Assembly: GCF_040675855.1 (NCBI RefSeq)
Contig: NZ_JBEGIK010000001.1
Coordinates: 868,001-932,000, forward strand
DNA: 64,000 nt
Direction: 5' to 3'
Source of the DNA: Microbacterium sp. LWH3-1.2
Lineage (GTDB): Bacteria; Actinomycetota; Actinomycetes; Actinomycetales; Microbacteriaceae
Positions 1 to 64,000 of this stretch are shown one piece after another. The position numbers and the translations under genes were made by a program. Under the pieces are notes generated by a model. It did not search any database and was not told where the DNA came from. It saw only the letters and a list, made by a program, of their open reading frames with translations. Numbering within the stretch: the stretch's first letter is position 1; every line of letters starts with the position of its first letter.

Positions 1-524
1 TAGCGCGTCAGCTGCTCGACTCCGTCGATGTCGCCACGGCGCTTCACCTCGACGGCGATCGTGCCGCCCTCGGGATCGCGCAGCAGCAGGTCGACCGGGC
101 CGATCGCCGTCGGGAACTCACGGCGCACCAGCGTGAGGTTGTCTCCGATCACGTCGACCTGCTCGGCGAGGAGGCGCTGCAGGTCGGCTTCGACGCCGTC
201 CTTCTGCAGACCCGGGTCGATGCCGAGCTCGTGCGACGAGTCGTGGATGACCTCGTAGATGCGCACCAGCAGTGCGTCCCCGGTCTTGGCGTGGGTCACG
301 CGCCAGTGCTCGAGCACTCCGGCGGACGCCGCCTCCTCGTCGGGCACCTCGACGTCGAGCCGGCACGGCGGGCTCATCCAGTTGAGCGGCTTGTACGACC
401 CGCCGTCGGAGTGCACCAGAAGCGACCCGTCCCCCTTGTGCACCAGCAGGCGGGTGGCGAGGGGCAGGTGGGCGTTGAGCCGCCCGGTGTAGTCGACCGA
501 GCAGCGGGCGATGACGAGACGCAC
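1..524 (-). CDS. nucS: Endonuclease NucS (partial, 3' end outside window)
   Basis: Mismatch-specific endonuclease of the DUF91/NucS family, which replaces MutS-MutL repair in many actinobacteria and cleaves mismatched duplex DNA. About 174 codons are present, beginning [20 protein letters not shown] after a GTG start, the conserved N-terminal signature of the family. The PD-(D/E)xK nuclease core begins at the window edge, with an Asp in GPVDLLLRD and the ExK of IAVEVKRRG visible. GTG at 524 was chosen because a TAGGCT box sits 6 nt upstream with no Shine-Dalgarno sequence, so the message is probably leaderless. Identification is confident; the C terminus is not visible. Confidence 0.93.
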
Positions 525-530
525 CCGAAG

Positions 531-536
531 AGCCTA
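531..536 (-). promoter_or_regulatory. -10 box of leaderless nucS promoter
   Basis: TAGGCT on the minus strand, 6 nt before the GTG start of nucS. This spacing puts the transcription start at or next to the start codon. Seen in sequence; activity inferred. Confidence 0.55.
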
Positions 537-664
537 GCCTCCCGCATCAGCTCGCCCGCAGGCTCGTCGGATAGCCTTTGCCCTCGTTGCGCGCACTGCT
601 GTGCTTTCCGTGCGACCCTCAGACCACGGCCCCCCACGCCGTCCCTTCCTCCGGAGAAGAACCG

Positions 665-1972
665 ATGAACTCTCGTCACCCCGACGCGACCGTCCACATC
701 CTGTCCAGCACCGTCGCCGAGCTCCACGTCGGCAGCGAGGTGGCGGAGGTCGTCGCCCCCGACAGCCTCGCCCTGCGCGACCGCGTGGTCGAGGAGATCC
801 GCCAGCTCGCAGCATCCGCCGGAGAACCGGCCCACGCGACGCTCGTCGAGGGCTCGTCCCGCTGGCCTCTCGTCGTTCATCCGGACGGCACGTTCGACGA
901 GGCGCTGGAGGAGGCGGCGGTGGACACGACGGCGGTTCCCGCGGTCGCTCCTGCCCCGGTGGCGGCCGTCCCGGTCACGGCGCCGACGCCGGTGGCAGCG
1001 GTGCCGACGCTCGCGCCCGTGGTGGAGGATGCGGCGCGGCCGACCGTGCAGGATCTGCTCGATTCGCGCGGCGGTGTCGGCGCCCGCCCGCGCGCGACGA
1101 CGGGCTGGCAGGGTGCTGTGCGCCGGGCGACGGGAGGCCTCATCTCTCCCGCACCCGGCCGCGTCGAGCGGTCGCGGCTCGACCGCGAGAAGCGGGTTCA
1201 GCGTCGTCTCGACGCCCCGCGCACGATCGTCGTGCTCAACCCGAAGGGCGGCGCGCACAAGACGACGAGCACCCTGCTGCTGGCCGCGACCTTCGGGACG
1301 CTGCGCGGCGGGGCGACCCTCGCGTGGGACAACAATGAGACCCGCGGCACGCTCGGGTGGCGCGCGCAGCACGCCCCGCACCACCGCACCGCCGTCGACC
1401 TGCTCGAGGACCTCGACGAGGCGTCGAACTTCCGCGGGTCGAGCCTCGCGGCGCTCGATCACTACGTCCGCACACAGGTCGACGCGCGCTTCGACGTGCT
1501 CGCCTCCGACGAGGACGCCGCGGCCTCCTCGACGATCGACGCGGCCGCCTTCGATCGGCTCCACGCACTTCTGCGCCGGTACTACCGCCTGATGATCGTC
1601 GACACCGGCAACAACATGCGCGCGTCGAACTGGGTCGCGGCCGTCGCCGCCGCCGACCAGCTCGTGATCGTGTCGACCGTCCGCGAGGACACGGCCGCCA
1701 GCGCCGCGTGGCTGCTCGACGGCCTGCGCGAGAAGGGCTTCGGCAGGAAGATCGACGAGGCGGTGACCGTGCTCACGGCGCCGTCCTCGCGCCCGGATCG
1801 CAAGCTCGAGTCGCGCCTCTCGCAGCACTTCGAGCGGGTGACGTCCGCCGTCGTGAACGCACCGTTCGATCCGTCGCTGGTCGACGGCGGGCCCATCGAC
1901 TTCGACGCGCTGTCGCCAGAGACCCGCGACGCGTGGCTCACGGTCGCGGCGACGGTGACGGACCGCCTCTGA
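665..1972 (+). CDS. ParA/MinD-like P-loop ATPase with disordered N-terminal half
   Basis: A 435-aa protein. The C-terminal half (about residue 185 onward) is a SIMIBI-class ATPase: the Walker A region NPKGGAHKTT (192-201) is the deviant KGGxxKTT form of ParA/MinD proteins, with His at a variable position, and LMIVDTGNNMRASNW is the Walker B/switch region. The N-terminal part starts with about 80 folded-looking residues and then an Ala/Pro/Val-rich linker (residues 100-150), as in the type VII secretion-associated EspI-like ATPases. ATG 665 has an upstream GGAGAAG; an earlier in-frame start at 578 lacks one. No parB or secretion gene is adjacent, so the cargo is unknown. It converges on the MFS gene, with a 36-bp gap. 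Confidence 0.8.
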   Translation: MNSRHPDATVHILSSTVAELHVGSEVAEVVAPDSLALRDRVVEEIRQLAASAGEPAHATLVEGSSRWPLVVHPDGTFDEALEEAAVDTTAVPAVAPAPVAAVPVTAPTPVAAVPTLAPVVEDAARPTVQDLLDSRGGVGARPRATTGWQGAVRRATGGLISPAPGRVERSRLDREKRVQRRLDAPRTIVVLNPKGGAHKTTSTLLLAATFGTLRGGATLAWDNNETRGTLGWRAQHAPHHRTAVDLLEDLDEASNFRGSSLAALDHYVRTQVDARFDVLASDEDAAASSTIDAAAFDRLHALLRRYYRLMIVDTGNNMRASNWVAAVAAADQLVIVSTVREDTAASAAWLLDGLREKGFGRKIDEAVTVLTAPSSRPDRKLESRLSQHFERVTSAVVNAPFDPSLVDGGPIDFDALSPETRDAWLTVAATVTDRL

Positions 1973-2008
1973 CCCGTTCGGTGAGATCCGACCGGGATCG
2001 GCGCCGGC

Positions 2009-3238
2009 TCAGTGGTGGGCGTGCCCCGCGCCGACCTTCGATCCGGCGATCGGCTTCGCGGCGCCGGAGGCGAGTCCCGAGATCGCGATGAGACCCACGA
2101 TGATCCAGAGCGTGGGCAGGATGCCGATCTCGTGGCTGATCCAGCCGAGGATCGGCGGACCGCACAGGAACGCGAGGTACCCGATGGTCGCGGCGGCCGA
2201 GACCGACGCAGCCGCCTTGCCGGGGTCGTCCGCCGCCGCCGACATGCCGAGAGGGAAGCCGAGCGAGGCCCCAGCGCCCCACAGCGCGATGCCGATGAAG
2301 GCGATCGGCAGGTTCGGCGCGAGGATGAACATGACCAGGCCCACGCCGGCCGCGATCGACAGGATGCGCAGCGACCACACGCGGCCGATCCGGTCCACGA
2401 GCGGACCGCCCAGGATGCGGAACGTCGTCATCGCGACCGAGAACACGGTCAGCGCGATGGCGCCGACGGCCTCGGTCTGGTCATGGCCGTCCACCATCGC
2501 GATCGTGAGCCAGTCGTTGGCGCTGCCCTCGGCGAAGGCCATGCCCAGCATGATGGCGCCGATGGCGTAGGTGCGCGGATCGCGCCAGACGGCCAGGACC
2601 TCGGCGAAGCGCTCGCGGCGCGTGCTGCTCGTCGCGGGGTCGTCGTGCATGCTCTCGCGCACGGGGACGGCGCGCAGCGACACCAGTCCGGCAACAACGA
2701 CGAGCAGGCCGGCGGCGGCGAGGTGCCAGCCGACTCCGATGCCGAGGGCCGCCATCGCGACACCGAGTCCGGCGCCCGCGACCGTGCCGAGGCTGAAGAA
2801 CGCGTGGAACAGCGGCATGAGTGTGCGCTCGAACGCCTGCTCCACTGCGGCCGCCTCGACGTTCATCATGACGTCGGTGGCGCTCATGCCGAGACCCATG
2901 AGTCCGAGCCCGACGGCGGCGACGACGTACGACTGCGTGAACTCCACGCCGACGCCGGCGAGCGCGACGCCGAGCGCAAACGTGATGATCGTCGCGAACA
3001 TGCCCCGTCGCGCGCCCCAGCGCGCGACGATCACATTGGCCAGCGACAGGCCCACGATCGAGGTGGCGCCCGCCACGAACAGCAGGACGCCCACCTGGAG
3101 GTCGTTGATGCCCAGGTCCACCTTCACCGCGGGCAGGCGGGACGCCCACGACGCGAAGCCCACTCCCATGATGAGGAAGATCGTGAAGATCGCGGTGCGC
3201 CAGGCGACCAGCTGCCGACGGGTGAGCGCGGTGTCCAT
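2009..3238 (-). CDS. MFS transporter (YbjJ-like)
   Basis: Major facilitator superfamily permease of about 409 aa with 12 predicted membrane segments, starting MDTALTRRQLVAWRTAIFTI. It carries the WASRLP segment after helix 1, the ARWGARRG loop between helices 2 and 3, and a cytoplasmic middle loop rich in charged residues, as in YbjJ-type putative sugar or drug efflux proteins. The substrate is unknown. It is divergent from a LacI-family gene, and two identical palindromes lie in the 82-bp gap, so the exporter is probably the repressor's target. ATG 3238 is 6 nt from a TAGCAT box (leaderless); GTG 3244 is a weaker alternative. The C terminus ends in a short His-containing tail, GHAHH. Confidence 0.85.
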   Translation of the reverse strand: MDTALTRRQLVAWRTAIFTIFLIMGVGFASWASRLPAVKVDLGINDLQVGVLLFVAGATSIVGLSLANVIVARWGARRGMFATIITFALGVALAGVGVEFTQSYVVAAVGLGLMGLGMSATDVMMNVEAAAVEQAFERTLMPLFHAFFSLGTVAGAGLGVAMAALGIGVGWHLAAAGLLVVVAGLVSLRAVPVRESMHDDPATSSTRRERFAEVLAVWRDPRTYAIGAIMLGMAFAEGSANDWLTIAMVDGHDQTEAVGAIALTVFSVAMTTFRILGGPLVDRIGRVWSLRILSIAAGVGLVMFILAPNLPIAFIGIALWGAGASLGFPLGMSAAADDPGKAAASVSAAATIGYLAFLCGPPILGWISHEIGILPTLWIIVGLIAISGLASGAAKPIAGSKVGAGHAHH

Positions 3239-3251
3239 CCGCACATGCTAG

Positions 3252-3263
3252 CGAATCGATTCG
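3252..3263. promoter_or_regulatory. LacI-type operator, copy 1
   Basis: Perfect 12-bp palindrome CGAATCGATTCG, overlapping the start of the MFS promoter (its TAGCAT box is at 3245-3250). Confidence 0.75.
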
Positions 3264-3271
3264 GCGATGCC

Positions 3272-3283
3272 CGAATCGATTCG
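3272..3283. promoter_or_regulatory. LacI-type operator, copy 2
   Basis: Second identical CGAATCGATTCG, centred 20 bp (about two helical turns) from the first, between the two divergent starts. The twin arrangement suits a LacI dimer pair or tetramer controlling both genes. Confidence 0.75.
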
Positions 3284-3320
3284 ACAACACCTGTTCGCGA
3301 CGGGCTACGATCGTGACAGC

Positions 3321-4388
3321 ATGAGCCGTCAGGACACCGGCATCCGCCGCGCCACGATCTCGGACGTCGCCCGTGAGGCAGGCGTCTCGCCGTCGACCGC
3401 CTCCGTGGTGTTCAGCGGCAAGACGCCGGTGTCGGACTCGACCCGCCGCCGCGTGCTGGACGCTGCCGCCGCGCTCGGCTACACCGGCCCCGACCCGCGC
3501 GCGGCGTCGCTGCGCCGAGGCCGCTCGGGGATCGTGGGCGTGGTGTTCGAGGAGCACCTGGGCACCGCGTTCCTCGACCCGGTGAAGACCCTCATGATGG
3601 ACGGCCTCGCCGATGCGGTCACCCCACTCGGCGCTGGCCTGCTGCTCCTCCGTGACCACGAACCGACCGGGAGCGGGCCTTCGCTCACCACCGCGCCGCT
3701 GGACGCCGCTGTGCTCATCGGCTGCAGCGGTCTGCTGCGCGAGTCGCTCGAGACCGTCAAAGCGCGCCGCATCCCCGTCGTCGTCATCGAAGGGGATGCC
3801 GGCGACGACGTGCCGCGAATCGGGCTCGACAACCGCGAGGCCCAGCGCCAGGCCGCGAGTCATCTGCGTGCGCTGGGACACCGCGAAGCCGCCGTCGTGA
3901 CGCTGCCCGCACGGGTCGACTGGAAGCGCGGCTGGTTGCACGACGACACGGGGGTCACCGTGGACGTCACCCGCGAGCGGCTCGCCGGCGCCCTCGACGT
4001 CTTCCCGGACGCTGCCGCCTTCGCCGCCGCGGGCAGCTTCATCGACGAGGGGTTCGCGGCCGGCCGCGAGATCTTCGCCGACCCCGACCGGCGACCGACC
4101 GCGGTCATCGCGCAGAGCGACCTGCTCGCGGCCGGGGTCATCCGGGCGGCCGAAGAAGCTGGTCTGCGCGTGCCGGAGGACGTCAGCGTCACCGGCTTCG
4201 ACGGCATCGTCGTCGACGGCCTCGCTCCGTACGAGCTCACCACCCTCGTGCAGCCCGCCACCGACAAGGGGCGCGCGGCCGGCGCCGCCGTCGCAGCGAT
4301 GCTCGAGGGCACCCCTGCGGCGTCGATCCGGTTCACCTGCACCTTCCGCGAGGGCAACACCACGGGGCCGGCACCCACGCGCGCCTGA
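3321..4388 (+). CDS. LacI-family transcriptional regulator
   Basis: A 355-aa repressor: N-terminal LacI helix-turn-helix (ATISDVAREAGVSPSTAS, about residues 9-26) with hinge helix (LGYTGPDPRAASLRRGRSG), then a periplasmic-binding-protein-like effector domain containing IGLDNREAQRQAASHL and the terminal GFDGIVVDGLAPYELTTLVQP segment. ATG 3321 was chosen: it lies 9 nt after a TACGAT box, and the in-frame ATG at 3267 sits inside the operator region and adds an unfolded extension. It is divergent from the MFS transporter and probably represses both. The inducer is unknown, probably a sugar or nucleoside. Confidence 0.9.
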   Translation: MSRQDTGIRRATISDVAREAGVSPSTASVVFSGKTPVSDSTRRRVLDAAAALGYTGPDPRAASLRRGRSGIVGVVFEEHLGTAFLDPVKTLMMDGLADAVTPLGAGLLLLRDHEPTGSGPSLTTAPLDAAVLIGCSGLLRESLETVKARRIPVVVIEGDAGDDVPRIGLDNREAQRQAASHLRALGHREAAVVTLPARVDWKRGWLHDDTGVTVDVTRERLAGALDVFPDAAAFAAAGSFIDEGFAAGREIFADPDRRPTAVIAQSDLLAAGVIRAAEEAGLRVPEDVSVTGFDGIVVDGLAPYELTTLVQPATDKGRAAGAAVAAMLEGTPAASIRFTCTFREGNTTGPAPTRA

Positions 4389-4433
4389 ACAGCCCGCAAC
4401 ACCCCCGGACGGGGCTGCGATGTATGCCGTTCG

Positions 4434-4485
4434 GGCGATCGGGCGCGACACGCCCGTTAGGATGGGTTTCGACACCCCGATCGCC
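4434..4485. promoter_or_regulatory. mrp operon promoter framed by an inverted repeat
   Basis: GGCGATCGGG (4434-4443) and its exact complement CCCGATCGCC (4476-4485) enclose a TAGGAT box (4458-4463). This is the only promoter-like signal before mrpA. The symmetry could be an operator or an mRNA 5' structure; which one is not known. Confidence 0.45.
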
Positions 4486-4542
4486 TGGGCTTTGCGCCGT
4501 CGTCCTCTGATGTGCGTTGCCGACGACCCCGAGGAGGCCCGA

Positions 4543-7473
4543 ATGCTCCTCGTTCTCGGCGCGTTCGCGGTCGTCCCGGTCCTTCTGCCGTGGCTGGTGG
4601 CGCGCATCGGCGCCCGCGCGTTCTACGTCGCCGCGGTCCTCCCGATCGCGGGATTCGTCTACGCCGCCTTGCTCACGCCGCAGGTGCTGGCGGGTGATAT
4701 TCCGTTCGAGACATACGCTTGGATCCCACCTCTCGGCATCGAGCTCTCGATGCGCATGGACACGCTGTCGTGGCTCATGACGCTGGTCGTCACCGGGGTC
4801 GGTGCGCTCGTGATGATCTACTGCCGCTGGTACTTCCGAGGCAAGAAGGAGAATCTCGGCCAGTTCGCCGCCGTGCTCCTCGCCTTCGCGGGCGCGATGT
4901 ACGGACTGGTCCTCACCGACGACCTCGTTGTCCTCGTGATGTTCTGGGAAGTCACCAGCGTGCTGTCGTACCTCCTCATCGGGTACTACAACAAGCGTGC
5001 GGCGAGCCGTCGTGCGGCCCTTCAGGCCCTCCTCGTGACGACGCTCGGCGGACTCGTCATGCTCATCGGCGTCGTGCTGCTCGTGGTCGACGCCGGCACC
5101 TCCAGCATCTCGACGATCCTCGCCGAAGCGCCGTCCGGCCCGATCGTCGACGCCGCGCTGGTGATGATCCTCGTCGGAGCGCTCAGCAAGTCGGCGATCT
5201 TCCCGTTCCACTTCTGGCTTCCGGGTGCCATGGCGGCGCCCACTCCGGTGAGCGCCTACCTGCACGCAGCGGCCATGGTGAAAGCGGGCATCTATCTGAT
5301 CGCCCGCTTCGCCCCGGTCTTCGCCATCGCTCCGACGTGGCGGCCGATCGTCGTCGCGCTGGGGGTCTTCACGATGCTGCTCGGCGGCTTCCAGGCGCTG
5401 CGCGAGACCGACCTCAAGCGCGTGCTCGCCTTCGGCACCGTGAGCCAGCTCGGCCTTCTGACAGTCGTGCTCGGCTACGGGACCAGGGATGCTGCGCTCG
5501 CAGGTCTCGCGCTGCTGCTGAGTCACGCCCTCTTCAAGTCGGCGCTGTTCCTCGTGGTCGGCGTCATCGACCGACAACTGTCGACACGCGACCTGACCGA
5601 GCTCTCGGGGGTGGGTAGGCAGGCACCGGTCATGGCGACGTTCTCGATCATCGCCGTCGCGTCGATGATCGGCGTCATCCCCACGATCGGCTTCGTCGCG
5701 AAGGAGGGCGCGCTCGCCTCACTGCTGCACGAGGCCCTGGGCGGCGCGGTGTGGGGGATCGTCGCGCTGGTCGGCGTCGCCCTGGGCTCGGTATTGACCG
5801 CGGGGTACGGCATCCGCTTCCTGTGGGGCGCCTTCTCAACCAAGCGCGCGGCGAGCGGCGACCGTATGCCCGATACGGAATGGCCCGACCCGCCGATCGG
5901 ATTCCTCGTCGCGCCGATCGTGCTCTCGGGCCTCACCGTCGTCGCAGGAGCCTTCGCGCCGTGGCTCGACAAGGTCTTCGCGCCCTATGCCGACCAGGCG
6001 CCGCCGTCGACTCCGGGCGTCGCTGCTCCCGAACACCCTGCGCACCTCGCGCTGTGGCACGGCCTCGAGCCGGCGCTGTGGATCTCGCTCGCCACGATCG
6101 CGATCGGCGTGCTCGTGTTCTGGCTGACGCCGAGCTGGCGTCCGGCGAGGCGCCTGCTGCCCTTCACCGCGGCGGAAGCGTACAACGGCACGCTGCGCGT
6201 GGTCGCGCGCCTCTCGGTGATCACCACGAGCCTCACGCAGCGCGGTTCGCTGCCGGTGTACGTCGGCACGATCTTCGTCGTGTTCGTCGCGGCCGAGGCG
6301 ACTGCGCTGCTCGCGAGCGACGACTGGCAGGCGAAGCTCGACGCGTACCAGACGCCCACGCAGCTGCTCGTCGCTCCGATCATGATCGCCGCGGGGCTCA
6401 TCGCGATCCGTGCGCGAAAGCGGTACACCGGCGTCGTGCTGGTGTCGGTCACGGGCGTCGGCATGGTGCTGCTCTTCGCGACCAGCGGCGCGCCCGATCT
6501 CGCGCTCACGCAGATCCTCGTCGAGACGGTCACGCTCGTCGCGTTCGCACTCGTCCTGCGGCGCATTCCGTCGCGCCTCGGCGAGCACAATGCCTCGGTG
6601 TGGCCCGTGGCCCGGGCTGTGCTGGGCGCGGCGGTCGGCATCACGATGGCCCTCGTGGCGATCGTCGCCACCAGTGCCCGTGTCGAGAAGCCGATCTCGG
6701 ACTCCTTCCCCGACCTGGCGTACGAGCTCGGCCATGGCAAGAACGTCGTCAACGTCGCCCTCGTCGACCTGCGCGGCTGGGACACCATGGGCGAGCTGTC
6801 GGTGCTGATCCTCGCAGCGACGGGCGTGGCGTCCCTCGTGTTCGTCACCCACCGCGCCGACACGCTCTCCAGGGCGATCTCGTCACTGCCCACCGGTGCG
6901 ATCCGCACGCGGCGTCCGCTGGTCGAGACCGCGGAGGGCGTGCGGCCGCGCGGCGCCGGCGGCGGCCGCATGGCGTGGCTCGTCGGCGGCCAGCGCGTGC
7001 GGCCCGAGAACCGCTCGATCATGCTCGAGGTGATCGTGCGGATCCTCTTCCACACGATCATCATCGTCTCGCTGTATCTGCTCTTCGCCGGCCACAACCT
7101 GCCGGGAGGAGGGTTCGCCGGCGGTCTCGTCGCGGGCATGGCCCTCGTCATGCGCTACATCGCGGGCGGCCGCTACGAGCTCGGCGCCGCCGCGCCCACC
7201 GACGCCGGACGACTGCTGGGCACGGGCATGTCGATCGCGGTCGCGTGTGCGATCGTGCCGGTGTTCCTCGGCGACCAGCCGCTCACGAGCTACTTCTGGG
7301 TGTGGGACGTGCCGCTGCTCGGACACGTCGAGTTCGTCACCTCGACGCTGTTCGACATCGGCGTGTACCTGGTCGTCATCGGCCTCGTGCTGGACGTGCT
7401 GCGCAGCCTCGGCGCCGAGGTCGACCGCCAGGCGCAGGAAGCACGCGAGCAGCAGGGGGTGATGGTCTCGTGA
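4543..7473 (+). CDS. mrpA: Na+/H+ antiporter subunit A (MrpA with fused MrpB domain)
   Basis: Largest subunit of the Mrp (Mnh/Sha) cation/proton antiporter, 976 aa and polytopic. The first ~500 residues are the NuoL/MrpA proton-antiporter core, with the Lys-containing stretches KSAIFPFHFWLPGAMAAPTPVSAYLHAA and SHALFKSALFLVVG (quoted in part). The C-terminal ~130 residues (IMLEVIVRILFHTIIIVSLY onward, with the GHNLPGGGFAGGL loop) are the MrpB module, so no separate mrpB gene is needed. ATG 4543 has a good Shine-Dalgarno (CGAGGAGG); upstream in-frame ATGs give a soluble extension unlike the family. It is the first gene of a six-gene operon and overlaps mrpC by 4 nt. Confidence 0.95.
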   Translation: MLLVLGAFAVVPVLLPWLVARIGARAFYVAAVLPIAGFVYAALLTPQVLAGDIPFETYAWIPPLGIELSMRMDTLSWLMTLVVTGVGALVMIYCRWYFRGKKENLGQFAAVLLAFAGAMYGLVLTDDLVVLVMFWEVTSVLSYLLIGYYNKRAASRRAALQALLVTTLGGLVMLIGVVLLVVDAGTSSISTILAEAPSGPIVDAALVMILVGALSKSAIFPFHFWLPGAMAAPTPVSAYLHAAAMVKAGIYLIARFAPVFAIAPTWRPIVVALGVFTMLLGGFQALRETDLKRVLAFGTVSQLGLLTVVLGYGTRDAALAGLALLLSHALFKSALFLVVGVIDRQLSTRDLTELSGVGRQAPVMATFSIIAVASMIGVIPTIGFVAKEGALASLLHEALGGAVWGIVALVGVALGSVLTAGYGIRFLWGAFSTKRAASGDRMPDTEWPDPPIGFLVAPIVLSGLTVVAGAFAPWLDKVFAPYADQAPPSTPGVAAPEHPAHLALWHGLEPALWISLATIAIGVLVFWLTPSWRPARRLLPFTAAEAYNGTLRVVARLSVITTSLTQRGSLPVYVGTIFVVFVAAEATALLASDDWQAKLDAYQTPTQLLVAPIMIAAGLIAIRARKRYTGVVLVSVTGVGMVLLFATSGAPDLALTQILVETVTLVAFALVLRRIPSRLGEHNASVWPVARAVLGAAVGITMALVAIVATSARVEKPISDSFPDLAYELGHGKNVVNVALVDLRGWDTMGELSVLILAATGVASLVFVTHRADTLSRAISSLPTGAIRTRRPLVETAEGVRPRGAGGGRMAWLVGGQRVRPENRSIMLEVIVRILFHTIIIVSLYLLFAGHNLPGGGFAGGLVAGMALVMRYIAGGRYELGAAAPTDAGRLLGTGMSIAVACAIVPVFLGDQPLTSYFWVWDVPLLGHVEFVTSTLFDIGVYLVVIGLVLDVLRSLGAEVDRQAQEAREQQGVMVS

Positions 7474-8027
7474 GCGTGTCGCTCGTCCTCATCGTCGTGA
7501 TGGCCGTGCTCTTCGCGTGCGGGGTCTACGCCATGCTCGAGCGCAGCCTCACCCGTGTGCTCATCGGGTTCCTGCTCCTGGGCAACGCGACCAACCTGCT
7601 CCTCCTGATCGTGATGGGTCGCCCGGGCGTCGCACCGTTCTTCGGCGCGGCATCCGTCGACGAGATGTCGGATCCGCTCCCGCAGGCGCTCACGCTCACC
7701 GCCATCGTGATCACCTTCGCCGTCTCGGCGTTCCTTCTCGCCCTCATCTACCGCTCCTGGCAGCTCGGTCAGGCCGACACCGTCACCGACGACGAAGCCG
7801 ATATCGAGGTGCGCTCTCGCGGGGCCGCCGACGAGGACACCATGGACGTGGAAACCGAGATCGAAGACGCTGACGACGATGCCACCACCGACTTCGTGGG
7901 CACCGCGACCGCGCCGATCATGATCCTCGGCGCGAAGGACATCGCGGGTGTGCGCGACGACGCGCCCGTCGATCGCCCCGACGGGCACGACGGCGCTGGT
8001 TCCCGTGACAGGGGCGACGGCGCATGA
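7470..8027 (+). CDS. mrpC: Na+/H+ antiporter subunit C
   Basis: NuoK-like membrane subunit of the Mrp complex, 185 aa. Three transmembrane segments fill residues 1-105 (SVSLVLIVVMAVLFACGVY, the glycine-rich LIGFLLLGNATNLLLL, and LTAIVITFAVSAFLLALIY). The family's core ends there; here an acidic cytoplasmic tail of about 75 residues, rich in Asp/Glu, extends it. The GTG start overlaps the mrpA stop (GTGA), giving translational coupling, and its own stop overlaps the mrpD ATG. Confidence 0.93.
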   Translation: MSVSLVLIVVMAVLFACGVYAMLERSLTRVLIGFLLLGNATNLLLLIVMGRPGVAPFFGAASVDEMSDPLPQALTLTAIVITFAVSAFLLALIYRSWQLGQADTVTDDEADIEVRSRGAADEDTMDVETEIEDADDDATTDFVGTATAPIMILGAKDIAGVRDDAPVDRPDGHDGAGSRDRGDGA

Positions 8028-11012: not shown

Positions 11013-13613
11013 TCAGGGCGTGAGCACGAGGGTGTCGGTCGTGGCCGCCTCGACCGCGTCGGGCGTGTACGCCCAGGGGGTCAGCTCGACCTTCTGCCAC
11101 GACTCCACCTGGTCGATGTAGTTCGTGTGGAAGGCGTGGCCGCTCTGGCCCGTGAGCTGGTTCCAGCGCGAATCGTCGAAATCGGACAGGTCGATGATCA
11201 TGCGCATCGACGGAACGGTGACGGTCGAGAAGCTCTGGGTCAGGTCCCACCCCGTCGCGTTCACGACGGACGAGCCGCCGCCGACCGGGAACGGACCGCG
11301 GTTGAAGAGCCACTCGATGGCGGCGATGCCCGAGGTGCCGAAGCTGCCGTTCTCGAGCGGGAGGGCGTGCAGGCTGCCCCAGTTCCAGCGCGAAGCGTTG
11401 TCACCCTGGTCGTCGACGAGTCGCTCGTAGGCATCGATGGCGGAGCGCTTCAGCATGTCGGCCATGCCGTCGACGCCGAGCTCGTCGTTGGTCCACCAGG
11501 GCGAGGTCTCGTCCTCGAGCAGCGCGTCCATCACGAGGAACTGACGGCCCTGACCGCTCATCGGCGCCGAGCGCTCGCGCCCATCGACGAACACGTTCTC
11601 GGCGAGAGTGTCCCACAGCACGTTGGCGTACGCGGCCGCCGCGGAGTCCGCGTCGTTCTGAGCGTCCCACTCCCGCAGGAGGTCGAGCGCGGCATCCGTC
11701 TCGTCGTCGCCCGTGGTGACGTCGGCGTAGGCCGCCGTGAGGCGCATGCCGATGAAGGAGTAGTTGTCGGCCTGGACGGCGTTGAGGTCGTCCGCGGTGA
11801 CCGGGCCCTTCGCGATCGCCCGCTCGATCAGTTCGGTGATGCGGGCTGCGCGCCAGCCGTAGTCCCAGTCGCGCGTGAGCGGATGGGTGTAGTCCTGTCC
11901 CGCGATGGCATTGTTCGCGGTGACGATGTACCCCTCGGTCGGGTTGTACGAGACCGGGAGCTCCTCGAACGGGATATAGCCCCGCCACGCATACGTCGAG
12001 TCCCACCCTGGCTGCGGCATCGAGCCGTCGCCGGCGCCGCGGATCGGCAGCCTGCCCGGCGTCTGGTAACCGATGTTGCCGTCCACGTCGGCGTAGATGA
12101 GGTTCTGCGCCGGCACGTCGAAGAGGGCCGCCGCGCCGCGGAAGTCGTCGAAGTCCTTGGCGGTGTTGAGGGCGAAGATCGCGGATGCCGTGGTTCCGGG
12201 CTGCAGTGCGGTCCAGCGCAGGCTCACCGCATCGTCGCCCTCGGGTGCGTCGGCCGGCGTCTCTGTCACGGTGCCGCCCGTCCCGACGGAGGGAGCCTCG
12301 GCGATCGACGTGAAGTCGCCGGTGAGGCCGGACACGATCGGGCCGTTGACCGTGGAACGGACTTCGAGCTCGACGTCGTCAGAACCCGCGACCTTGAACG
12401 TCTCGGTGTGCGTCTCGAGCGGCACCAACGCGCCGTCGTACCAGTACGAGTCGCCGTCCACCTTCTCGAGATAGAGGTCCGTGACGTCGGTGGTGAGGTT
12501 CGTGAAGCCCCACGCGATGCGCTCGTTGTGGCCGATCACGACGCCGGGAAGCCCCGAGAAGCCGAATCCGGCCACATCGAACGGGCACTCTTCAGTGACC
12601 GTCGAGCACTTCAGCTGGATCTGGTGCCACACGCTCGGCAGCGACGCGCCGAGGTGCGGGTCGTTGGCGAGAAGCGGCATTCCGGTGTCGGTGACGTTGC
12701 CCGACACCACCCATGAGTTCGATCCGATGCCCTCACCGGCGCCGCCGACCAGTTCGCCGACGGCTTCGATCACGCTGCCGACCTCCGTCCACTCGATCGA
12801 CGAGGCGGTCGCATCCGTCTCAGGAGGGTCGGGAGCTGTGCCGAGCGCGGGCACCGCCGAGATCTTCGGCACGATGACCGGGTTCCGGTCGAACGGGTAG
12901 CCGGGGTAGAGCTGGTCGATCTCGGCCTCGGAGAAGTCCGGCGCCATGACCGCGCGCTCCGTCTCGCTCTCGATATTGCTGCGGAGGTCCCAGGCCATCG
13001 CCTTGAGCCACGCGACAGAGTCGGCCGGAGTCCACGGCTCGATCGCGTAGTCGGAGTTCTGCAGGCCCAGCACGGCGTACTCGAACGAGGCGTCGGGGCC
13101 CTGGTGGTCGGCGAGGTAGGCGTTCACGCCGTCGGCGTAGGCGTCGTAGTAGGCGCGCTCCGTGGCGTCGAGGGCGTCCACCTCCTGTTCGGCGATCTCA
13201 TGCCAGCCGAGCGTGCGCAGGAACTTGTCGGTGCCGAGCTGCGACGCGCCGAACATCTCGGAGAGGCGCCCGCTCGTGACGTGCCGGCGGAAGTCCATCT
13301 CCCAGAACCGATCCTGCGCGTGCACGTAACCCTGGGCGAAGAAGAGGTCGTGCGACGAATCCGCGGTGAGCGTGGGGATGCCGAGCGCATCCCGCTGCAC
13401 CGTCACGTCGGCCTCGAGCCCGGCCGCCTCCACCTCGCCGCTCAGCTGCGGGAACGAGCGCTGCGCGGTGTACGCGACGAAGCCGACCGCGATCAGGGCG
13501 AGCACCACGATCCCCGCGAGGATACTGAAGAGGGTGATCCCGATGATCCGCCCCACGGGCCGGCGATGGACGGTGTCGTCGACGGCATAGGGCGAGGGCT
13601 GGGGCTTCGTCAT
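11013..13613 (-). CDS. Penicillin acylase family protein (Ntn hydrolase)
   Basis: An 866-aa precursor of the penicillin G acylase / acyl-homoserine-lactone acylase family. A cytoplasmic N terminus is followed by one transmembrane anchor (about residues 24-47), so the enzyme probably faces outward. The alpha-chain motif YVHAQDRFWEMDF is near residue 95. Autocleavage should occur before Ser298 in IGSNSWVVSG, the new N-terminal nucleophile of the beta chain; the downstream ANDPHLGASLPSVWHQIQL is the conserved oxyanion-hole region. Substrate is unknown (beta-lactam side chains, acyl-homoserine lactones and other amides are all possible). ATG 13613 is chosen over an upstream extension without membrane or signal character. 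A small palindrome abuts the ATG. Confidence 0.9.
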   Translation of the reverse strand: MTKPQPSPYAVDDTVHRRPVGRIIGITLFSILAGIVVLALIAVGFVAYTAQRSFPQLSGEVEAAGLEADVTVQRDALGIPTLTADSSHDLFFAQGYVHAQDRFWEMDFRRHVTSGRLSEMFGASQLGTDKFLRTLGWHEIAEQEVDALDATERAYYDAYADGVNAYLADHQGPDASFEYAVLGLQNSDYAIEPWTPADSVAWLKAMAWDLRSNIESETERAVMAPDFSEAEIDQLYPGYPFDRNPVIVPKISAVPALGTAPDPPETDATASSIEWTEVGSVIEAVGELVGGAGEGIGSNSWVVSGNVTDTGMPLLANDPHLGASLPSVWHQIQLKCSTVTEECPFDVAGFGFSGLPGVVIGHNERIAWGFTNLTTDVTDLYLEKVDGDSYWYDGALVPLETHTETFKVAGSDDVELEVRSTVNGPIVSGLTGDFTSIAEAPSVGTGGTVTETPADAPEGDDAVSLRWTALQPGTTASAIFALNTAKDFDDFRGAAALFDVPAQNLIYADVDGNIGYQTPGRLPIRGAGDGSMPQPGWDSTYAWRGYIPFEELPVSYNPTEGYIVTANNAIAGQDYTHPLTRDWDYGWRAARITELIERAIAKGPVTADDLNAVQADNYSFIGMRLTAAYADVTTGDDETDAALDLLREWDAQNDADSAAAAYANVLWDTLAENVFVDGRERSAPMSGQGRQFLVMDALLEDETSPWWTNDELGVDGMADMLKRSAIDAYERLVDDQGDNASRWNWGSLHALPLENGSFGTSGIAAIEWLFNRGPFPVGGGSSVVNATGWDLTQSFSTVTVPSMRMIIDLSDFDDSRWNQLTGQSGHAFHTNYIDQVESWQKVELTPWAYTPDAVEAATTDTLVLTP

Positions 13614-17095: not shown

Positions 17096-18625
<1,530 letters not shown>

Positions 18626-40877: not shown

Positions 40878-40939
40878 GCGGCTCAGCTCCAGAAATTCGG
40901 GGATGCCGGACCTGAACAGTCTATTCGGCTCGTCGTCCG

Positions 40940-43204: not shown

Positions 43205-43230
43205 AGTCTGCACCGCACCAAGGAGCAACG

Positions 43231-44406: not shown

Positions 44407-44428
44407 CGCACCGGAACAAGGAACGATC

Positions 44429-46600: not shown

Positions 46601-46629
46601 CCTGTCCGACCTGAAACATGGGGAACACG

Positions 46630-46923: not shown

Positions 46924-47032
46924 CGCGCTCCCGCGCGATCGGCCGATGGCCGCGGTGGGTGGGATTCCAACCGCTGCCGCGGCTTCTGGGCCGTGTTGAT
47001 CACGTGGTGCCTCGCAGCGGCCCTGATGTGGA

Positions 47033-47836: not shown

Positions 47837-48021
47837 ACGTGGAGTATGACAGTGCGCCACGAGCGAAGACGCACATCAACGCCGCGTCCGCCAGTCGGCT
47901 GACGCTCCGGCCGCTGTTCTCGTCGTGCTTCATCGAGCAACGTGATCAACACGCCCTGGGCGTGCTGCGCCGCGGTGAGTTCCCGACAGGAGATGCGGTT
48001 GACGGATGCTGCCAGCGGGGC

Positions 48022-50338: not shown

Positions 50339-50368
50339 GGAGACGGATGCTGCGCAGCATCCGTCTCC
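50339..50368. terminator. Bidirectional terminator, 30-bp perfect palindrome from facing motifs
   Basis: The stem GGAGACGGATGCTGC is followed directly by its exact complement, then by a T-rich tract on the plus strand. It sits between convergent genes (stops at 50314 and 50374) and is made from two facing ACGGATGCTGC motifs. Confidence 0.8.
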
Positions 50369-52165: not shown

Positions 52166-52198
52166 GGGACGGATGCGGCGGAGCGCAGCATCCATCCC
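52166..52198. terminator. Terminator-like hairpin from imperfect facing motifs
   Basis: GGGACGGATGCGGC (52166-52179) and GCAGCATCCATCCC (52185-52198), 14-bp arms with two mismatches and a 5-nt loop, between the convergent terC and kdpE stops. Confidence 0.6.
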
Positions 52199-55544: not shown

Positions 55545-55610
55545 GAGAGGGACGGATGCTGCGGTCCGGGCCGACGCTCACGGGTTGTGGACGCGATTCA
55601 CGCGTGGCGT

Positions 55611-56139: not shown

Positions 56140-56999
56140 TGCCGACGTTCCCGGTGTCGGGCCCGGCGGCCGTGCGCATCGAGCTGCAGACGGGCCGCAT
56201 CGACGTCGTCGCCGAGCGCCGTCGTGACCTCGCCGTCGACGTCGCGCCCGCGAATCCGCATCGCGCGGGCGACCGCAGCGCATCCGAGGCCGTCAGGGTG
56301 ACGCAGGCGGGATCCGACCTGCGCATCGTCGGCCCGGTGCGGTTCAACCTCTTCGGCTCGGGCGACTCGGTCGACGTGTCGGTGCGCATCCCCACCGGGT
56401 CGGACGTCTCACTCGCGCTCAAGTACGGCTCGATCCGCGTCGCGGGCGTCGTCGGCACCGCGCGCATCGCGCTGGACTACGGCGACGCGACCCTCGAGCG
56501 CACCGGCCGCGCCGATCTGGGCCTCGGCCACGGCGAGCTGCGCGTCGAGCACGTGCGCGGTGACGCCGATGTGGACATCACGTCCGGCCGTGCACGCATC
56601 GGCATCGTCGACGGAGCCCTGCGCCTCAAGGGATCGGACGCCGGGATCGACGTCGGCTCGGTCTCGGGCGCGGCCGACATCGCGACGTCGAGCGGAGTCG
56701 TGCATCTGGGCGATCCCGGCCCGGCCCTCACGGTGCGCTCGGCCTACGGTCCGGTGCGCATCGGCGACCTCAACGGCGGCACGGCGCGGGTCGAGGCGTC
56801 ATACGGGGCCGTCGACCTCGGCATCCGTTCAGGCACGGCCTGCTGGCTCGACGTGTCGAGCCGGCACGGTGTGGTGCGCAACGAGCTGGCCGCGGACGCC
56901 GGTCCCATCGAGGGGGAGGCATCGGTCGAGCTCTACGCCCGCGCCGGGTACGGCGACATCACGGTGCACCGCACGCATCCGGTCGCGGGCGGGGATTGA
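56139..56999 (+). CDS. DUF4097 family beta-strand repeat protein
   Basis: A 286-aa protein with right-handed beta-helix-like repeats of the DUF4097/DUF4098 type (adhesin-like): strands repeat as DVSLALKYGSIRVAGVVGTA, RIALDYGDATLERTGRADLG, GHGELRVEHVRGDADVDITS. There is no signal peptide or anchor, so it appears cytoplasmic, unlike exported adhesins. It is coupled to an RHH DNA-binding protein. Function unknown, perhaps a scaffold or ligand sensor. Confidence 0.85.
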   Translation: MPTFPVSGPAAVRIELQTGRIDVVAERRRDLAVDVAPANPHRAGDRSASEAVRVTQAGSDLRIVGPVRFNLFGSGDSVDVSVRIPTGSDVSLALKYGSIRVAGVVGTARIALDYGDATLERTGRADLGLGHGELRVEHVRGDADVDITSGRARIGIVDGALRLKGSDAGIDVGSVSGAADIATSSGVVHLGDPGPALTVRSAYGPVRIGDLNGGTARVEASYGAVDLGIRSGTACWLDVSSRHGVVRNELAADAGPIEGEASVELYARAGYGDITVHRTHPVAGGD

Positions 57000-57091: not shown

Positions 57092-58845
<1,754 letters not shown>

Positions 58846-58933: not shown

Positions 58934-61060
58934 TCAGGGCTTGGTCGTGATCGATGGCTCCGCGGCGTCCGCCTTCTCGGGTGGGCCCGCGGGCCGGATC
59001 GCGCGGCGGCCGACCCGATGCACCTCGGGGGCGGCGGCGCGTCCGGCGCGGTCATCGCCGGGCAGCGCGCGCGAGCGGCGGCCGTAGATGAGCTCCGACG
59101 AGTCCAGCAGCCAGGGCACGAGCGTGATCGAGACGCCGTGCACGAGCATGAGCTGCTGCGCGATGCGGCGGGCGCGCCGGTTGTGCAGGAGCGACTCCCA
59201 CCAGTGGCCGACGATGTACTGCGGCAGGTAGACGGTGACCACCGCAGACCCGTGCTCCTCGCGGTACTTCTTCACGAACTCCGCGATGGGGCTCGCGTAT
59301 ATGCGGTACGGCGACTCGATGATCTTGAGCGGAATCGGCATGCGGTGCTCCCGCCATTCCGCCTCGAGGGCGGCCGCATCCTCCTTGGTCACGGAGACGT
59401 GCACCGCGAACGTCTTGTCGTGCTTGGCCGCGAGGGCGTAATCGACCGCCTTCACGACGGGCTTCTGCAGCTTGTTGACGAGGATGAGGGCGACGTCGCC
59501 CGTCGAGCCGAAGTGGATGTGGTCGTCCATCGCGATCTCGTGGTCGACGTCGCGGTAGTAGCGGTGCACGCCCACCATGAGGAACGACAGGATCGGGATC
59601 GCGAGGAAGACGAGCCATGCGCCATGCGTGAACTTCGTGATGGTCACGATGACGAGGACGGATGCCGTCATCGTCGCGCCGACCGAATTGATCACGAGCC
59701 CCTTGCGCAGCCCGAACAGTTCGGTGCGCGTCGAAGCGCTGCGGCGCGTGTCAGCCGGGAGCTCGCGGATGCCCCGGATCCCTCGGATCCAATGCCGGAT
59801 CATGCCGATCTGCCCGATCGTGAACGAGACGAACACGCCGATGATGTACAGCTGGATCAGGTTCGTGAGGTTCGCCTGATAGACGATCAGCACGCCGATG
59901 GCGACGAGGCCCAGGATGATCATGCCGTTGGAGTACACCAGGCGGTCGCCGCGGGTGTTGAGCGCCTTCGGCGCGTAGCCGTCGCGCGCGAGCACCGAGC
60001 CGAGCAGGGGGAACCCGTTGAAGGCCGTGTTGGCTGCCAGCAGCAGCACCACCGCGGTCGCCCCCTGGATGATGAAGAACGGGATCGAGTTCATCCCGAA
60101 CACCGCCGAAGACACCTGCGCCATGAGACTCGGCTGCGGGTTGGAGCAGTCGAAGCCGATGAGGTCACAAGGGTTCTCGGCGTAATGCACGCCGGAGACG
60201 AGTGCGATCGCCGTGAGCCCCGCGAACAGCAGGATCGCGATGCCGCCCATCATGGCGAGGGTGGACTGGGCGTTGCGCACCTTCGGCTGGCGGAACGCCT
60301 GCACGCCGTTCGAGACGGCCTCGACGCCGGTGAGGGCCGAGCAGCCGCTCGAGAACGCGCGCAGCACGAGCAGGATGACGGCGGCCTGCGTGAGGCTCTC
60401 CGTCTGCACCTCGTATTGGGCGCTGGAGGCGACGGGCGGGTTGCCGGTCACGATCTGGAAGAGGCCGACGACGATCATCACTCCGACCGACCCAATGAAG
60501 ATGTAGGTGGGGATCGCGAAGGCGCTCGACGCCTCGCGCACCCCGCGCAGGTTGACGACGACGATGAGGATGACGAAGCCGACAGCCAGCTCGATGCGCC
60601 AGGGGTTGAGGCCGGGCAGCGCAGAGATGATGTTGTCGACGCCGGAAGCGATCGACACGGCGACCGTGAGCACGTAGTCGACGAGGAGCGCCGATGCCAC
60701 GATCACGCCGGGGATCTCGCCGAGGTTCTTGCGGGCGACCTCGTAGTCGCCGCCGCCCGACGGGTAGGCCTTGATGAGCTGCCGGTAGCTGATCACCACG
60801 ACGGTCAGCAGGACGATGACCGCGGCGGCGACCCACGGCGCGAACGCCAGGAACGCCAGGCCGCCGGTCAGCAGGATGAGAAGCAGCTCCTGCGGAGCGT
60901 ACGCGACCGACGACAGCGCGTCGGAGGCGAAGATCGGCAGCGCCCTCTTCTTCGGAAGCAGATGCTCGTCGGAGTCGGTGGACGCGAGCGGGTCGCCCAG
61001 GATGAGGCGCTTGGCGATGGGCGTCTCATCCACCGACTGCTCGCGGCTTTCATTCGTCAC
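58934..61060 (-). CDS. APC-superfamily permease, KimA (YdaO)-like
   Basis: A 708-aa transporter of the amino-acid/polyamine/organocation superfamily: about 12 helices (residues 60-500) then a cytoplasmic domain. Early signature SSVAYAPQELLLILLTGGLA and IKAYPSGGGDYEVARKNLGE, with the APC pattern, match the KimA/YdaO group, known in Bacillus for K+ import and c-di-AMP binding via a USP-like C-terminal domain (about 505-650, FGSTGDVALILVNKLQKPVV). Potassium transport is an inference. No c-di-AMP riboswitch was recognised upstream. It is divergent from the VanZ-RDD gene. Confidence 0.85.
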   Translation of the reverse strand: MTNESREQSVDETPIAKRLILGDPLASTDSDEHLLPKKRALPIFASDALSSVAYAPQELLLILLTGGLAFLAFAPWVAAAVIVLLTVVVISYRQLIKAYPSGGGDYEVARKNLGEIPGVIVASALLVDYVLTVAVSIASGVDNIISALPGLNPWRIELAVGFVILIVVVNLRGVREASSAFAIPTYIFIGSVGVMIVVGLFQIVTGNPPVASSAQYEVQTESLTQAAVILLVLRAFSSGCSALTGVEAVSNGVQAFRQPKVRNAQSTLAMMGGIAILLFAGLTAIALVSGVHYAENPCDLIGFDCSNPQPSLMAQVSSAVFGMNSIPFFIIQGATAVVLLLAANTAFNGFPLLGSVLARDGYAPKALNTRGDRLVYSNGMIILGLVAIGVLIVYQANLTNLIQLYIIGVFVSFTIGQIGMIRHWIRGIRGIRELPADTRRSASTRTELFGLRKGLVINSVGATMTASVLVIVTITKFTHGAWLVFLAIPILSFLMVGVHRYYRDVDHEIAMDDHIHFGSTGDVALILVNKLQKPVVKAVDYALAAKHDKTFAVHVSVTKEDAAALEAEWREHRMPIPLKIIESPYRIYASPIAEFVKKYREEHGSAVVTVYLPQYIVGHWWESLLHNRRARRIAQQLMLVHGVSITLVPWLLDSSELIYGRRSRALPGDDRAGRAAAPEVHRVGRRAIRPAGPPEKADAAEPSITTKP

Positions 61061-61155
61061 GGCCCGTAACGCTACTCGTGAGAGGAACGTGAGGATGCAT
61101 CCAGACGGCCATCCTCACGAAATCCATGCGCGTGCCTCCCTGGGACACTCGTAGC

Positions 61156-63106: not shown

Positions 63107-63582
63107 CGGCCATGTGGAGACGCGTGACGCTGGACGTGCATCTCGACCACCCGCCCGCTCGCGTCTTCCGGTACTTCGCCGACCCCGGCACCTGGCATGA
63201 GTGGGCGCCCGCGGTCGAACTCCGCCGGCGCGTCGGCGACGGGCCGCCGAGCGTGGGCAGCCGCTGGACGGCGGTCGACCGCATCACCGGCCCCTTTCGC
63301 GTCCGCTTCGAAGACGTTCTCGAGGTCGTCGAGCCCGAGGTGCGGGTCGTGTGGCACTCCACCTCGCCGTGGAACTCGCGTGTCGAGTACGCGTGCGCAC
63401 CCGAGGGCGGCGGCACCCGCGTGCTCGCCGATTACGGGGGCGACGTCGCGGGGTGGCTCAGACTCGTCGCGCTGCTGCCGACGTTCGTCCTCGCCCGCAT
63501 CCTCATGCGCGACTTCCGCGGTCTCCAGCGGCTGCTCGATGCCGAGGACGCGCGCGCGAGGGCCGTCGCCGGGTCCGACTGA
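63103..63582 (+). CDS. SRPBCC family protein
   Basis: A 159-aa START/polyketide-cyclase-like domain: LDVHLDHPPARVFRYFADPG, then TWHEWAP, the VGSRWTAVDRITGPFRVRFE strand, and the C-terminal helix LARILMRDFRGLQRLLDAE. Probably binds a hydrophobic ligand. GTG 63103 overlaps the hemerythrin stop (GTGA); ATG 63112 is an alternative in frame. The two are probably cotranscribed. Confidence 0.8.
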   Translation: MTAMWRRVTLDVHLDHPPARVFRYFADPGTWHEWAPAVELRRRVGDGPPSVGSRWTAVDRITGPFRVRFEDVLEVVEPEVRVVWHSTSPWNSRVEYACAPEGGGTRVLADYGGDVAGWLRLVALLPTFVLARILMRDFRGLQRLLDAEDARARAVAGSD

Positions 63583-63608
63583 CGCTGGCGGCGAGAAGGC
63601 CGGACGGA

Positions 63609-63635
63609 ACGGATGCTGCGGCCCGCGGCATCCGT
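63609..63635. terminator. Terminator-like hairpin from facing motifs
   Basis: ACGGATGCTGCGG and CCGCGGCATCCGT, 13-bp arms with one G-U pair and almost no loop, between the convergent SRPBCC and amidohydrolase stops. Confidence 0.7.
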
Positions 63636-63642
63636 CCAGCGC

Positions 63643-64000
63643 CTACGCCGTCGGGGTCCCGAGGAACTCGCGCGCGGCGACCACGAGCGCGTCGACGCCG
63701 CGGCTCAGCGTGGGCTGGAGCACCGGGGCGAAGAACGGCGAGTGGTTGGTCGGGATGTCGCGCTCGACCGTGCCCGCCGCGAACGCCTCCGCGAACTTCC
63801 GCGGATCCACGCCGCCCCAGAACCAGAAGACCAGCGGCACGCCGGCCTCGCGGGCGAACCACGACACGTCCTCGCTGCCGGTGAACATGCCGGGGTCGAT
63901 GACCGTCCCCTCGCCGAACGCCGCGTCGAACGCGAGGACCAGGCGTGCCGTCGCGTGCACATCGTTGATCGTCGGGGGGAGCGTGTGGTCGGTGACGATG
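63643..64000 (-). CDS. M20-family amidohydrolase, C-terminal part (5' end outside window)
   Basis: Only the last ~119 codons are present, continuing past the window's right edge. SEDVSWFAREAGVPLVFWFW supplies the metal-pocket Glu-Asp, and TNHSPFFAPVLQPTLSRGVD contains the terminal His typical of M20 amidohydrolases (hippurate/IAA-amino-acid hydrolase type), which act on N-acyl amino acids. Identification rests on this C-terminal signature. Confidence 0.8.
   Translation of the reverse strand, partial: IVTDHTLPPTINDVHATARLVLAFDAAFGEGTVIDPGMFTGSEDVSWFAREAGVPLVFWFWGGVDPRKFAEAFAAGTVERDIPTNHSPFFAPVLQPTLSRGVDALVVAAREFLGTPTA

Follow-up and report, generated by a model that had tools for sequence, protein, structure and literature searches.

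The octamer ACGGATGC is dispersed and strongly over-represented across the genome of Microbacterium sp. LWH3-1.2 (assembly GCF_040675855.1), and its extended form, ACGGATGC[T/C]GC(G), is probably the local dialect of a putative DNA uptake sequence (DUS) of the family Microbacteriaceae, a reading to which we assign a probability of about two thirds. The motif was analysed in the window, that is, the whole stretch of 64,000 nt from position 868,001 to 932,000 of contig NZ_JBEGIK010000001.1, and then in the remainder of the genome and in related genomes. Below we describe the word, its distribution, dialects and conservation, and the comEA-comEC genes and two Tad pilus clusters of the same genome.

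A short word in excess throughout the genome

Exact counting gave 35 copies of ACGGATGC in the window, 15 on the plus strand and 20 on the minus strand. A preliminary description of this DNA had given the same numbers, and every coordinate that it listed was reproduced; as it had also stated, 8 plus-strand and 6 minus-strand sites reach the longer form ACGGATGCTGC. Its estimate of about one chance copy per strand is right for base composition alone but not when trinucleotides are considered, the expectation then being 4.6 copies for both strands combined; the excess in the window is therefore ∼7.6-fold rather than the ∼15-fold it had put forward. The mean over 100 dinucleotide shuffles of the window was 4.96 copies, with a maximum of 12.

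The over-representation extends well beyond the window. In the whole genome (3,936,381 bases), ACGGATGCNGC was found 1,054 times (521 forward and 533 reverse) and its reversed control 8 times (4 and 4), and the word is spaced on average ∼2,000 nt apart. A genome sample of 464 kb out of 3.94 Mb, made up of the window and twenty 20-kb stretches, contained 210 copies of ACGGATGC when 32–38 were expected; among all 8-mers present 15 times or more, this word had the top z-score. The consensus in the sample was (G)ACGGATGC[T/C]GC(G)n(C)C, with a G-rich flank upstream. The motif is thus real and genome-wide, with the copy number in the hundreds to thousands, far above expectation, that characterises an uptake sequence.

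Strand use, placement and hairpin pairs

All results in this section refer to the 464-kb sample unless indicated otherwise; genes were called with a simple purpose-made gene finder, 10.8% of the sample being intergenic. Both strands were used about equally, in agreement with the preliminary description: besides the 15/20 distribution in the window and the 521/533 distribution in the genome, plus/minus counts in the two chromosome halves were 67/74 and 34/35 (origin and terminus were not mapped). The word is therefore spread over the chromosome on both strands without polarity, as in uptake sequences.

Inside genes there were 148 of the 210 octamers (78 sense and 70 antisense), while 59 of the 210, and 46 of the 126 copies of ACGGATGCYGC, were intergenic, the word being ∼3-fold denser between genes. 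The density per kb was highest in gaps between convergent genes (2.89), followed by tandem gaps (1.20), divergent gaps (0.47) and genes (0.36). The octamer showed no bias towards gene termini (16 copies within 100 bp of a stop codon versus 13.5 expected), the 11-mer a slight one (13 versus 7.3; P = 0.03). Neighbouring copies less than 50 bp apart were head-to-head in 14 cases, tail-to-tail in one and in tandem in none; there were only 19 neighbour pairs less than 100 bp apart. The four head-to-head pairs of the window (Table 1) all fold as hairpins better than shuffled sequences do, with z-scores from −3.7 to −8.4. Enrichment between genes and inverted pairs at the ends of genes, both evident in this genome, are typical of DUS and of uptake signal sequences (USS). 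The hairpin at 50343–50364 is followed by CUCUUUUC and is terminator-like.

Table 1. Copies of ACGGATGC in the window; copies that form a head-to-head pair share a line.
Element	Positions	Strand	Location	Folding or conservation
ACGGATGC (+CGC)	7650–7657	−	in gene	
ACGGATGC	11692–11699	−	in gene	
ACGGATGC	12811–12818	−	in gene	
ACGGATGC	15100–15107	−	in gene	
ACGGATGC	15954–15961	+	in gene	
ACGGATGC	16131–16138	−	in gene	
ACGGATGC (+TGC)	17136–17143	−	in gene	
ACGGATGC	18561–18568	+	intergenic	
ACGGATGC	19642–19649	+	in gene	identical in 2/2 aligning relatives
ACGGATGC	20125–20132	−	in gene	octamer altered in 3/3 aligning relatives; GGATGC retained in 1
ACGGATGC (+TGC)	20799–20806	−	intergenic	
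ACGGATGC	21943–21950	−	in gene	
ACGGATGC	22049–22056	−	in gene	
ACGGATGC (+TGC)	24658–24665	+	in gene	
ACGGATGC	28364–28371	−	intergenic	
head-to-head pair	30328–30371	30328 +, 30364 −	intergenic	hairpin, −42.5 kcal/mol, z −8.4
ACGGATGC	30558–30565	+	intergenic	
ACGGATGC	31239–31246	−	in gene	GGATGC retained in 7/7 relatives, octamer in 4
head-to-head pair	33148–33215	33148 +, 33208 −	3′ end of gene 32281–33282	−52.3 kcal/mol, z −5.7
ACGGATGC	33852–33859	+	in gene	
ACGGATGC (+TGC)	35561–35568	+	in gene	
ACGGATGC	39240–39247	−	in gene	
ACGGATGC (+TGC)	48002–48009	+	intergenic	
head-to-head pair	50343–50364	50343 +, 50357 −	between convergent genes	−26.2 kcal/mol, z −5.7
ACGGATGC	52169–52176	+	intergenic	
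ACGGATGC (+TGC)	55552–55559	+	intergenic	
ACGGATGC	56821–56828	−	in gene	
ACGGATGC	57280–57287	−	in gene	
ACGGATGC (+TGC)	58310–58317	−	in gene	
ACGGATGC	59658–59665	+	in gene	
head-to-head pair	63609–63635	63609 +, 63628 −	convergent genes	hairpin, −24.2 kcal/mol, z −3.7

The excess within genes is not explained by codon use

As a control for codon use, codons were exchanged among the sampled genes in such a way that all proteins and the codon pool were preserved (10 shuffles). The number of coding copies of ACGGATGC fell from the 153 observed to 21.0 ± 2.9, which upholds the argument of the preliminary description that codon bias does not explain the motif. The word was over-represented in each of the six frames; in the frame reading Thr-Asp-Ala there were 67 copies versus 10, and in that reading Ala-Ser-Val on the opposite strand 40 versus 2. 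When the same control was applied outside this genome, to the dialect words described below, 25 of 26 genome-word pairs retained a 3- to 8-fold excess, the remaining one (genome G104) showing a 1.5-fold excess; these factors are inflated because the words were picked from the same samples. The factor for ACGGATGC is not inflated in this way, since the word had been named beforehand from the window (although the window itself is part of the sample).

A family-specific word with lineage dialects

All 34 other Microbacterium genomes analysed contained ACGGATGCNGC, at 27–485 copies each; across 299 genomes of the Microbacteriaceae the range was 0–1,054 copies, and in 23 genomes from other families of the order 3–28 copies. 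Counts of the related word CGGATGCSGC covered 149 genomes from the order (10 family members and 139 genomes from other families). Nine of the ten family members had 417–2,608 copies, 3 to 17 times the value of the reversed control, and the remaining one, Microbacterium G206, had 109 copies (1.5 times the control). In the 139 genomes from other families there were 8–249 copies, values that never exceeded ∼46 per Mb or 3.4 times the control and in many genomes fell short of the control. The word is therefore specific to the family, and the other families of the order have nothing comparable.

Comparison with other Microbacteriaceae, which the preliminary description had proposed, revealed dialects centred on GGAT. 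Samples were taken from 32 family genomes: 80 kb from each of four genomes with few copies of ACGGATGCNGC, and 60 kb from each of 28 single-contig genomes (40 kb for four small ones). GGAT was contained in the top 8-mer of 17 of the 32, as against 0–5% of the words considered. Words such as CGGATGCC, GGATGCGC, GGATGCCC and GGATGCCT lead in many genera; CAGGATCC and CAGGATGC lead in g26, GCAGGATC in g65, TCCGGATC in G145, GCGGATCG in G104 and CCGGATCC in G206. GGAT words also ranked high in G088 (second) and G076 (third). In the other 13 genomes no GGAT word led; these comprise the small genomes G066, G068, G112 and G084 (1.4–1.8 Mb) as well as G078, G156, G256, G259, G335, G351, G072, G217 and G069. 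Lineage dialects arranged around an invariant core, here GGAT, are a further trait of uptake sequences. The intergenic excess was likewise present in seven close Microbacterium relatives (G380, G444, G383, G370, G367, G418 and G028).

Two dialect samples had features of their own. In Microbacterium G206 and in G088 (genus g53), GGATCC, with CGGATCCG, replaces GGATGC as the over-represented word; the GGATCC word is palindromic, so it may reflect a different phenomenon. In G259 (genus g68), AGGCTCAG and CTTCGACA were over-represented, perhaps as pieces of one longer repeat.

Conservation of individual sites

The window was aligned to stretches of seven close relatives that were 83–89% identical at one tested locus; 87 of the 245 possible site-relative pairs align. 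The GGATGC columns were 87–98% identical in the aligned relatives and the adjoining columns mostly 68–86%, the exceptions being the Y position (48%) and the C two positions beyond it (94%); the first two columns of the motif were 71% and 84% identical. At noncoding sites, the whole octamer was retained in 14 of 23 site-relative pairs, versus 28% for composition-matched words. The flanks of motif sites were less conserved than those of control words.

In two relatives the core was often kept while the letters in front of it changed. Of the 10 sites aligned in G383, seven retain GGATGC preceded by other letters (once by a gap), two are identical and one is lost; of the 10 aligned in G028, six retain GGATGC with other letters and four are identical. 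Both relatives have NNGGATGC at the two sites of the pair 30328/30364, and the top GGAT word of G383 is GGATGCCG (68 copies versus 11.2 expected). Such a pattern would be expected if recognition had shifted at the 5′ end of the word.

Phages and stretches lacking the motif

Six Microbacterium phage records (211 kb) were analysed; pooled, they held 8 copies of ACGGATGC versus 6.6 expected, that is, no excess, the dialect of the phage hosts not having been measured. One of them, the 17-kb phage Owens, differs from the five larger records in being enriched in CGGATGCC, and perhaps shares the dialect of its host. The longest motif-free gap of the window spans positions 39248–48001. Most of it is filled by a stretch of 6.8 kb with six genes (40940–47752) that aligns to no fetched stretch of the seven close relatives. 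The lack of the motif in this stretch is as expected if it were recently acquired DNA without the word, although it is a single case.

Competence genes and pilus clusters

The preliminary description had named comEA/comEC and type IV pilus (T4P) genes as worth looking for; comEA, comEC and T4P-type ATPases were found in the genome, together with two Tad clusters, which makes up a competence apparatus. The comEA gene, whose product has SLBB and helix-hairpin-helix domains and is 82% identical to ComEA of Microbacterium ureisolvens, adjoins comEC. The T4P-type ATPases are clustered with pilin-like genes (as read by eye). One Tad cluster encodes an 80-residue DUF4244 protein, a TadE-family protein, a T2SSF-type protein resembling a fused TadBC and, marginally below the cut-off, an Rv3654c-like protein; it adjoins genes that by eye resemble topA and tmk. 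The second Tad cluster encodes a TadA-type ATPase, proteins that resemble TadB and TadC and have separate genes (both recognised by eye), a pilin-like protein of 62 residues that matched no domain, a TadE/G-like protein and two TadE-like proteins, one of them below the cut-off. In Micrococcus luteus, according to PMC4322843, deletions in two tad clusters with these two arrangements abolish transformation, one tadB deletion merely lowering it, and T4P genes were not found. From the gene arrangement we infer that the two Tad clusters of Microbacterium are probably the counterparts of these transformation clusters.

Several genes were considered as markers that might follow the motif. comEC was discarded because it is universal, being present in 294 of 299 family genomes. 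A canonical T4P was rejected as the reader of the word, since the PilB-type ATPase did not track the motif in 52 genomes: the motif-rich genomes G251, G352, G010, G019, G187 and G310 had no match, and one was found in the motif-poor genomes of g26, g50 and g84 and in four of the five g54 genomes tested. The ATPase of the second cluster, in which TadB and TadC are separate (Tad-1), was scored as present at an E-value below 1e-60, a threshold that includes a few intermediate values, in one genome per genus (78 of the 299) and then in the 63 of these that measure 2.5 Mb or more. A density of 40 copies per Mb or higher was reached by 21 of the 45 genomes with the Tad-1 ATPase and by none of the 18 without it (Fisher's test, P = 0.0002, phylogeny ignored). 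Motif density thus follows the Tad-1 ATPase in part, with exceptions.

Further observations concern Tad genes. Divergence of pilins was tried as a sign of dialect change and rejected: in G206, of the GGATCC dialect, TadE and TadF look more diverged from those of other Microbacterium than TadA would suggest, but this is a single genome, and some pilin rows of the comparison were unassigned. Searching plasmids for a related TadA yielded no helpful comparison. In G034, the Tad-1 cluster (L190, about 3000–5700) has no pilin-like genes after tadC in the fetched stretch, the genes present being mobile-element-like by eye.

Proposed origin of the word and alternative explanations

If the word is an uptake sequence, a scenario can be proposed in which competence, the receptor and a driving role of biased uptake are all inferred. 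Microbacterium cells would be naturally competent, and a surface receptor, most likely a Tad (Flp) minor pilin, would prefer double-stranded DNA bearing the word. ComEA and ComEC would import one strand, which recombination would install in the chromosome. Since word-bearing alleles would be taken up more often, copies would build up genome-wide on both strands; they would be best tolerated between genes and could be reused as terminator-like hairpins. A shift in the preference of the receptor would rewrite the letters around the GGAT core and so give rise to dialects. Tad minor pilins are the best lead for the reader of the word. A broader proposal, which we advance tentatively and rate a little short of an even bet, is that this would be the first Gram-positive DNA uptake sequence system, with GGAT dialects across the Microbacteriaceae read by a Tad/Flp minor pilin rather than by a type IV pilin like ComP, and thus an independent origin of sequence-specific uptake in another branch of the type IV filament superfamily.

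A number of observations weigh against an uptake sequence. Phage Owens is enriched in the words (3 copies of ACGGATGC versus 0.4 expected, and 14 of CGGATGCC versus 0.9), and GGATGC is raised 1.6-fold in the phages (209 versus 132), just as in the Microbacterium genome itself (846 versus 530). Eight sites lie in the first 18.6 kb of the window, nearly all of which is unaligned to any relative. Retention of the octamer at coding sites was only slightly above that of matched words (34 of 64, or 53%, versus 42%). The intergenic excess was seen in only about three of 18 genomes from other genera (G076, G193 and G145) and not in G206, and some dialects (CGGATCCG) are palindromic. comEC occurs in family genomes with or without the motif. 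The Tad-1 comparison ignores phylogeny, and ACGGATGCNGC undercounts other dialects; in addition, the Tad-1 ATPase is not sufficient, small genomes such as G066, G068 and G112 and large genomes such as G206 and G259 having it without this dialect, and is perhaps not necessary, given that all seven g32 genomes and G195, in which no close Tad-1 ATPase is present, carry 42–204 and 215 copies, respectively.

We consider it unlikely that the word is an iterated motif of the HIP1 (highly iterated palindrome) kind, in which copies arise and are kept through a repair bias linked to an orphan DNA methyltransferase that marks the word. According to PMC4390886, HIP1 of cyanobacteria is also common across its lineage and is swapped for other words in some genomes, with matching methyltransferases. 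A PF01555 methyltransferase match (E-values of 1e-39 to 1e-47) was indeed found in all 14 word-bearing genomes first tested, that of G061 (L207, 1471–2358) resembling RsrI and CcrM, and some dialects are GGATCC palindromes. However, ACGGATGC/GCATCCGT is not a palindrome, and a strong PF01555 match (E-value below 1e-37) was also present in two of 15 genomes of other families and in 12 of the 13 family members that lack a clear word, the exception being G084, whereas G148, which has a strong GGATGCGC word, gave a weaker match (1.7e-28). In searches covering PF01555 and PF02086, therefore, PF01555 methyltransferases did not accompany the word. Hairpin pairs at gene ends are not mentioned in the HIP1 passages of that source. 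Dam-type methyltransferases (PF02086) were rejected as candidates, a match appearing in one of 14 genomes. The PF01555 methyltransferase is near-universal in the sampled Microbacteriaceae, small genomes included, the copy of the present genome lying at 362610–363347.

A motif of chromosome architecture or recombination, whether similar to KOPS (FtsK orienting polar sequences), AIMS (architecture imparting sequences) or Chi, or a site for a nucleoid protein, is quite unlikely. Words similar to KOPS, AIMS or Chi occur about once per few kb, a spacing comparable to that found here. Yet the replication strand bias of such motifs is missing from the 464-kb sample: strand use was even in both chromosome halves, which speaks against KOPS, AIMS or Chi and bears out the argument of the preliminary description against a KOPS-like polarity signal. 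To our knowledge, head-to-head hairpin pairs and dialects are not features of KOPS, AIMS, Chi or nucleoid-protein motifs. The preliminary description had left the choice between an uptake sequence and another architectural or repair motif. Its first option is favoured by the even strands, lack of polarity, intergenic excess, hairpin pairs and dialects; the second is unsupported, because strand polarity is absent and hairpin pairs at gene ends would not be expected of it.

It is very unlikely that the word is a transcription-terminator element which multiplied in hairpin form and left single copies behind: the hairpin pairs and the high density between convergent genes would fit, but 148 of the 210 copies lie within genes in both orientations, and close neighbour pairs number only 19. 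The word is almost certainly not a product of codon use, of frequent amino-acid pairs or of base composition, and these sources were rejected: tri- and tetranucleotides alone do lift the expectation above the earlier base-composition estimate, but codon shuffling preserves just 21.0 of 153 copies and the word is denser between genes than inside them.

Implications and comparison with known systems

The passages of the literature available name two Gram-negative families, the Pasteurellaceae and the Neisseriaceae, as having uptake sequences. In the literature covered, which leaves out most subscription papers, searches on Actinobacteria, Microbacteriaceae, Microbacterium and M. luteus turned up no account of this motif as an uptake sequence, and among the papers listed as containing the word itself none dealt with it, to judge by the titles. 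If an uptake sequence does exist in these high-GC Gram-positives, a preference for self-DNA would have evolved again, perhaps with another pilus; there would be a fresh test of whether uptake words arise through biased uptake, and many Microbacteriaceae would exchange DNA preferentially inside their own dialect group.

Among known systems, HIP1 of cyanobacteria, as described in the available part of PMC4390886, is similar in being an octamer iterated genome-wide, with alternates in some lineages; HIP1 is palindromic and tied to its methyltransferases, whereas the Microbacterium word is not palindromic and does not follow the methyltransferase tested. M. luteus (PMC4322843) shares the gene arrangement: in both, tadB and tadC are separate genes in tad-1, tad-2 has a fused tadBC plus a small Flp, and comEA-comEC is present. 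It differs in that the Microbacterium genome additionally has a T4P cluster, and the term 'uptake sequence' does not appear in the main text of that article. The uptake sequences of Pasteurellaceae (PMC2346458) are similar in that their copies number in the hundreds to thousands, lie in either orientation and occur in and outside genes; those of Pasteurellaceae are reported to be biased to gene termini, while here the octamer shows no such bias and the 11-mer only a slight one. The closest model is the DUS of Neisseriaceae (PMC3630211), likewise a short word of high copy number whose lineage dialects share an invariant core, CTG in that family and GGAT in the Microbacteriaceae, although the phylum is another and the letters are unrelated. 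The Neisseriaceae DUS is read by the type IV minor pilin ComP, a function demonstrated in that family and proposed by analogy in this one; unlike that type IV pilin reader, the T4P assembly ATPase of the Microbacteriaceae does not track the motif, while the Tad-1 ATPase partly does. The anatomy of the Microbacterium word, with its even strands, intergenic excess and head-to-head hairpin pairs, is that of the uptake sequences of Neisseria and Haemophilus.

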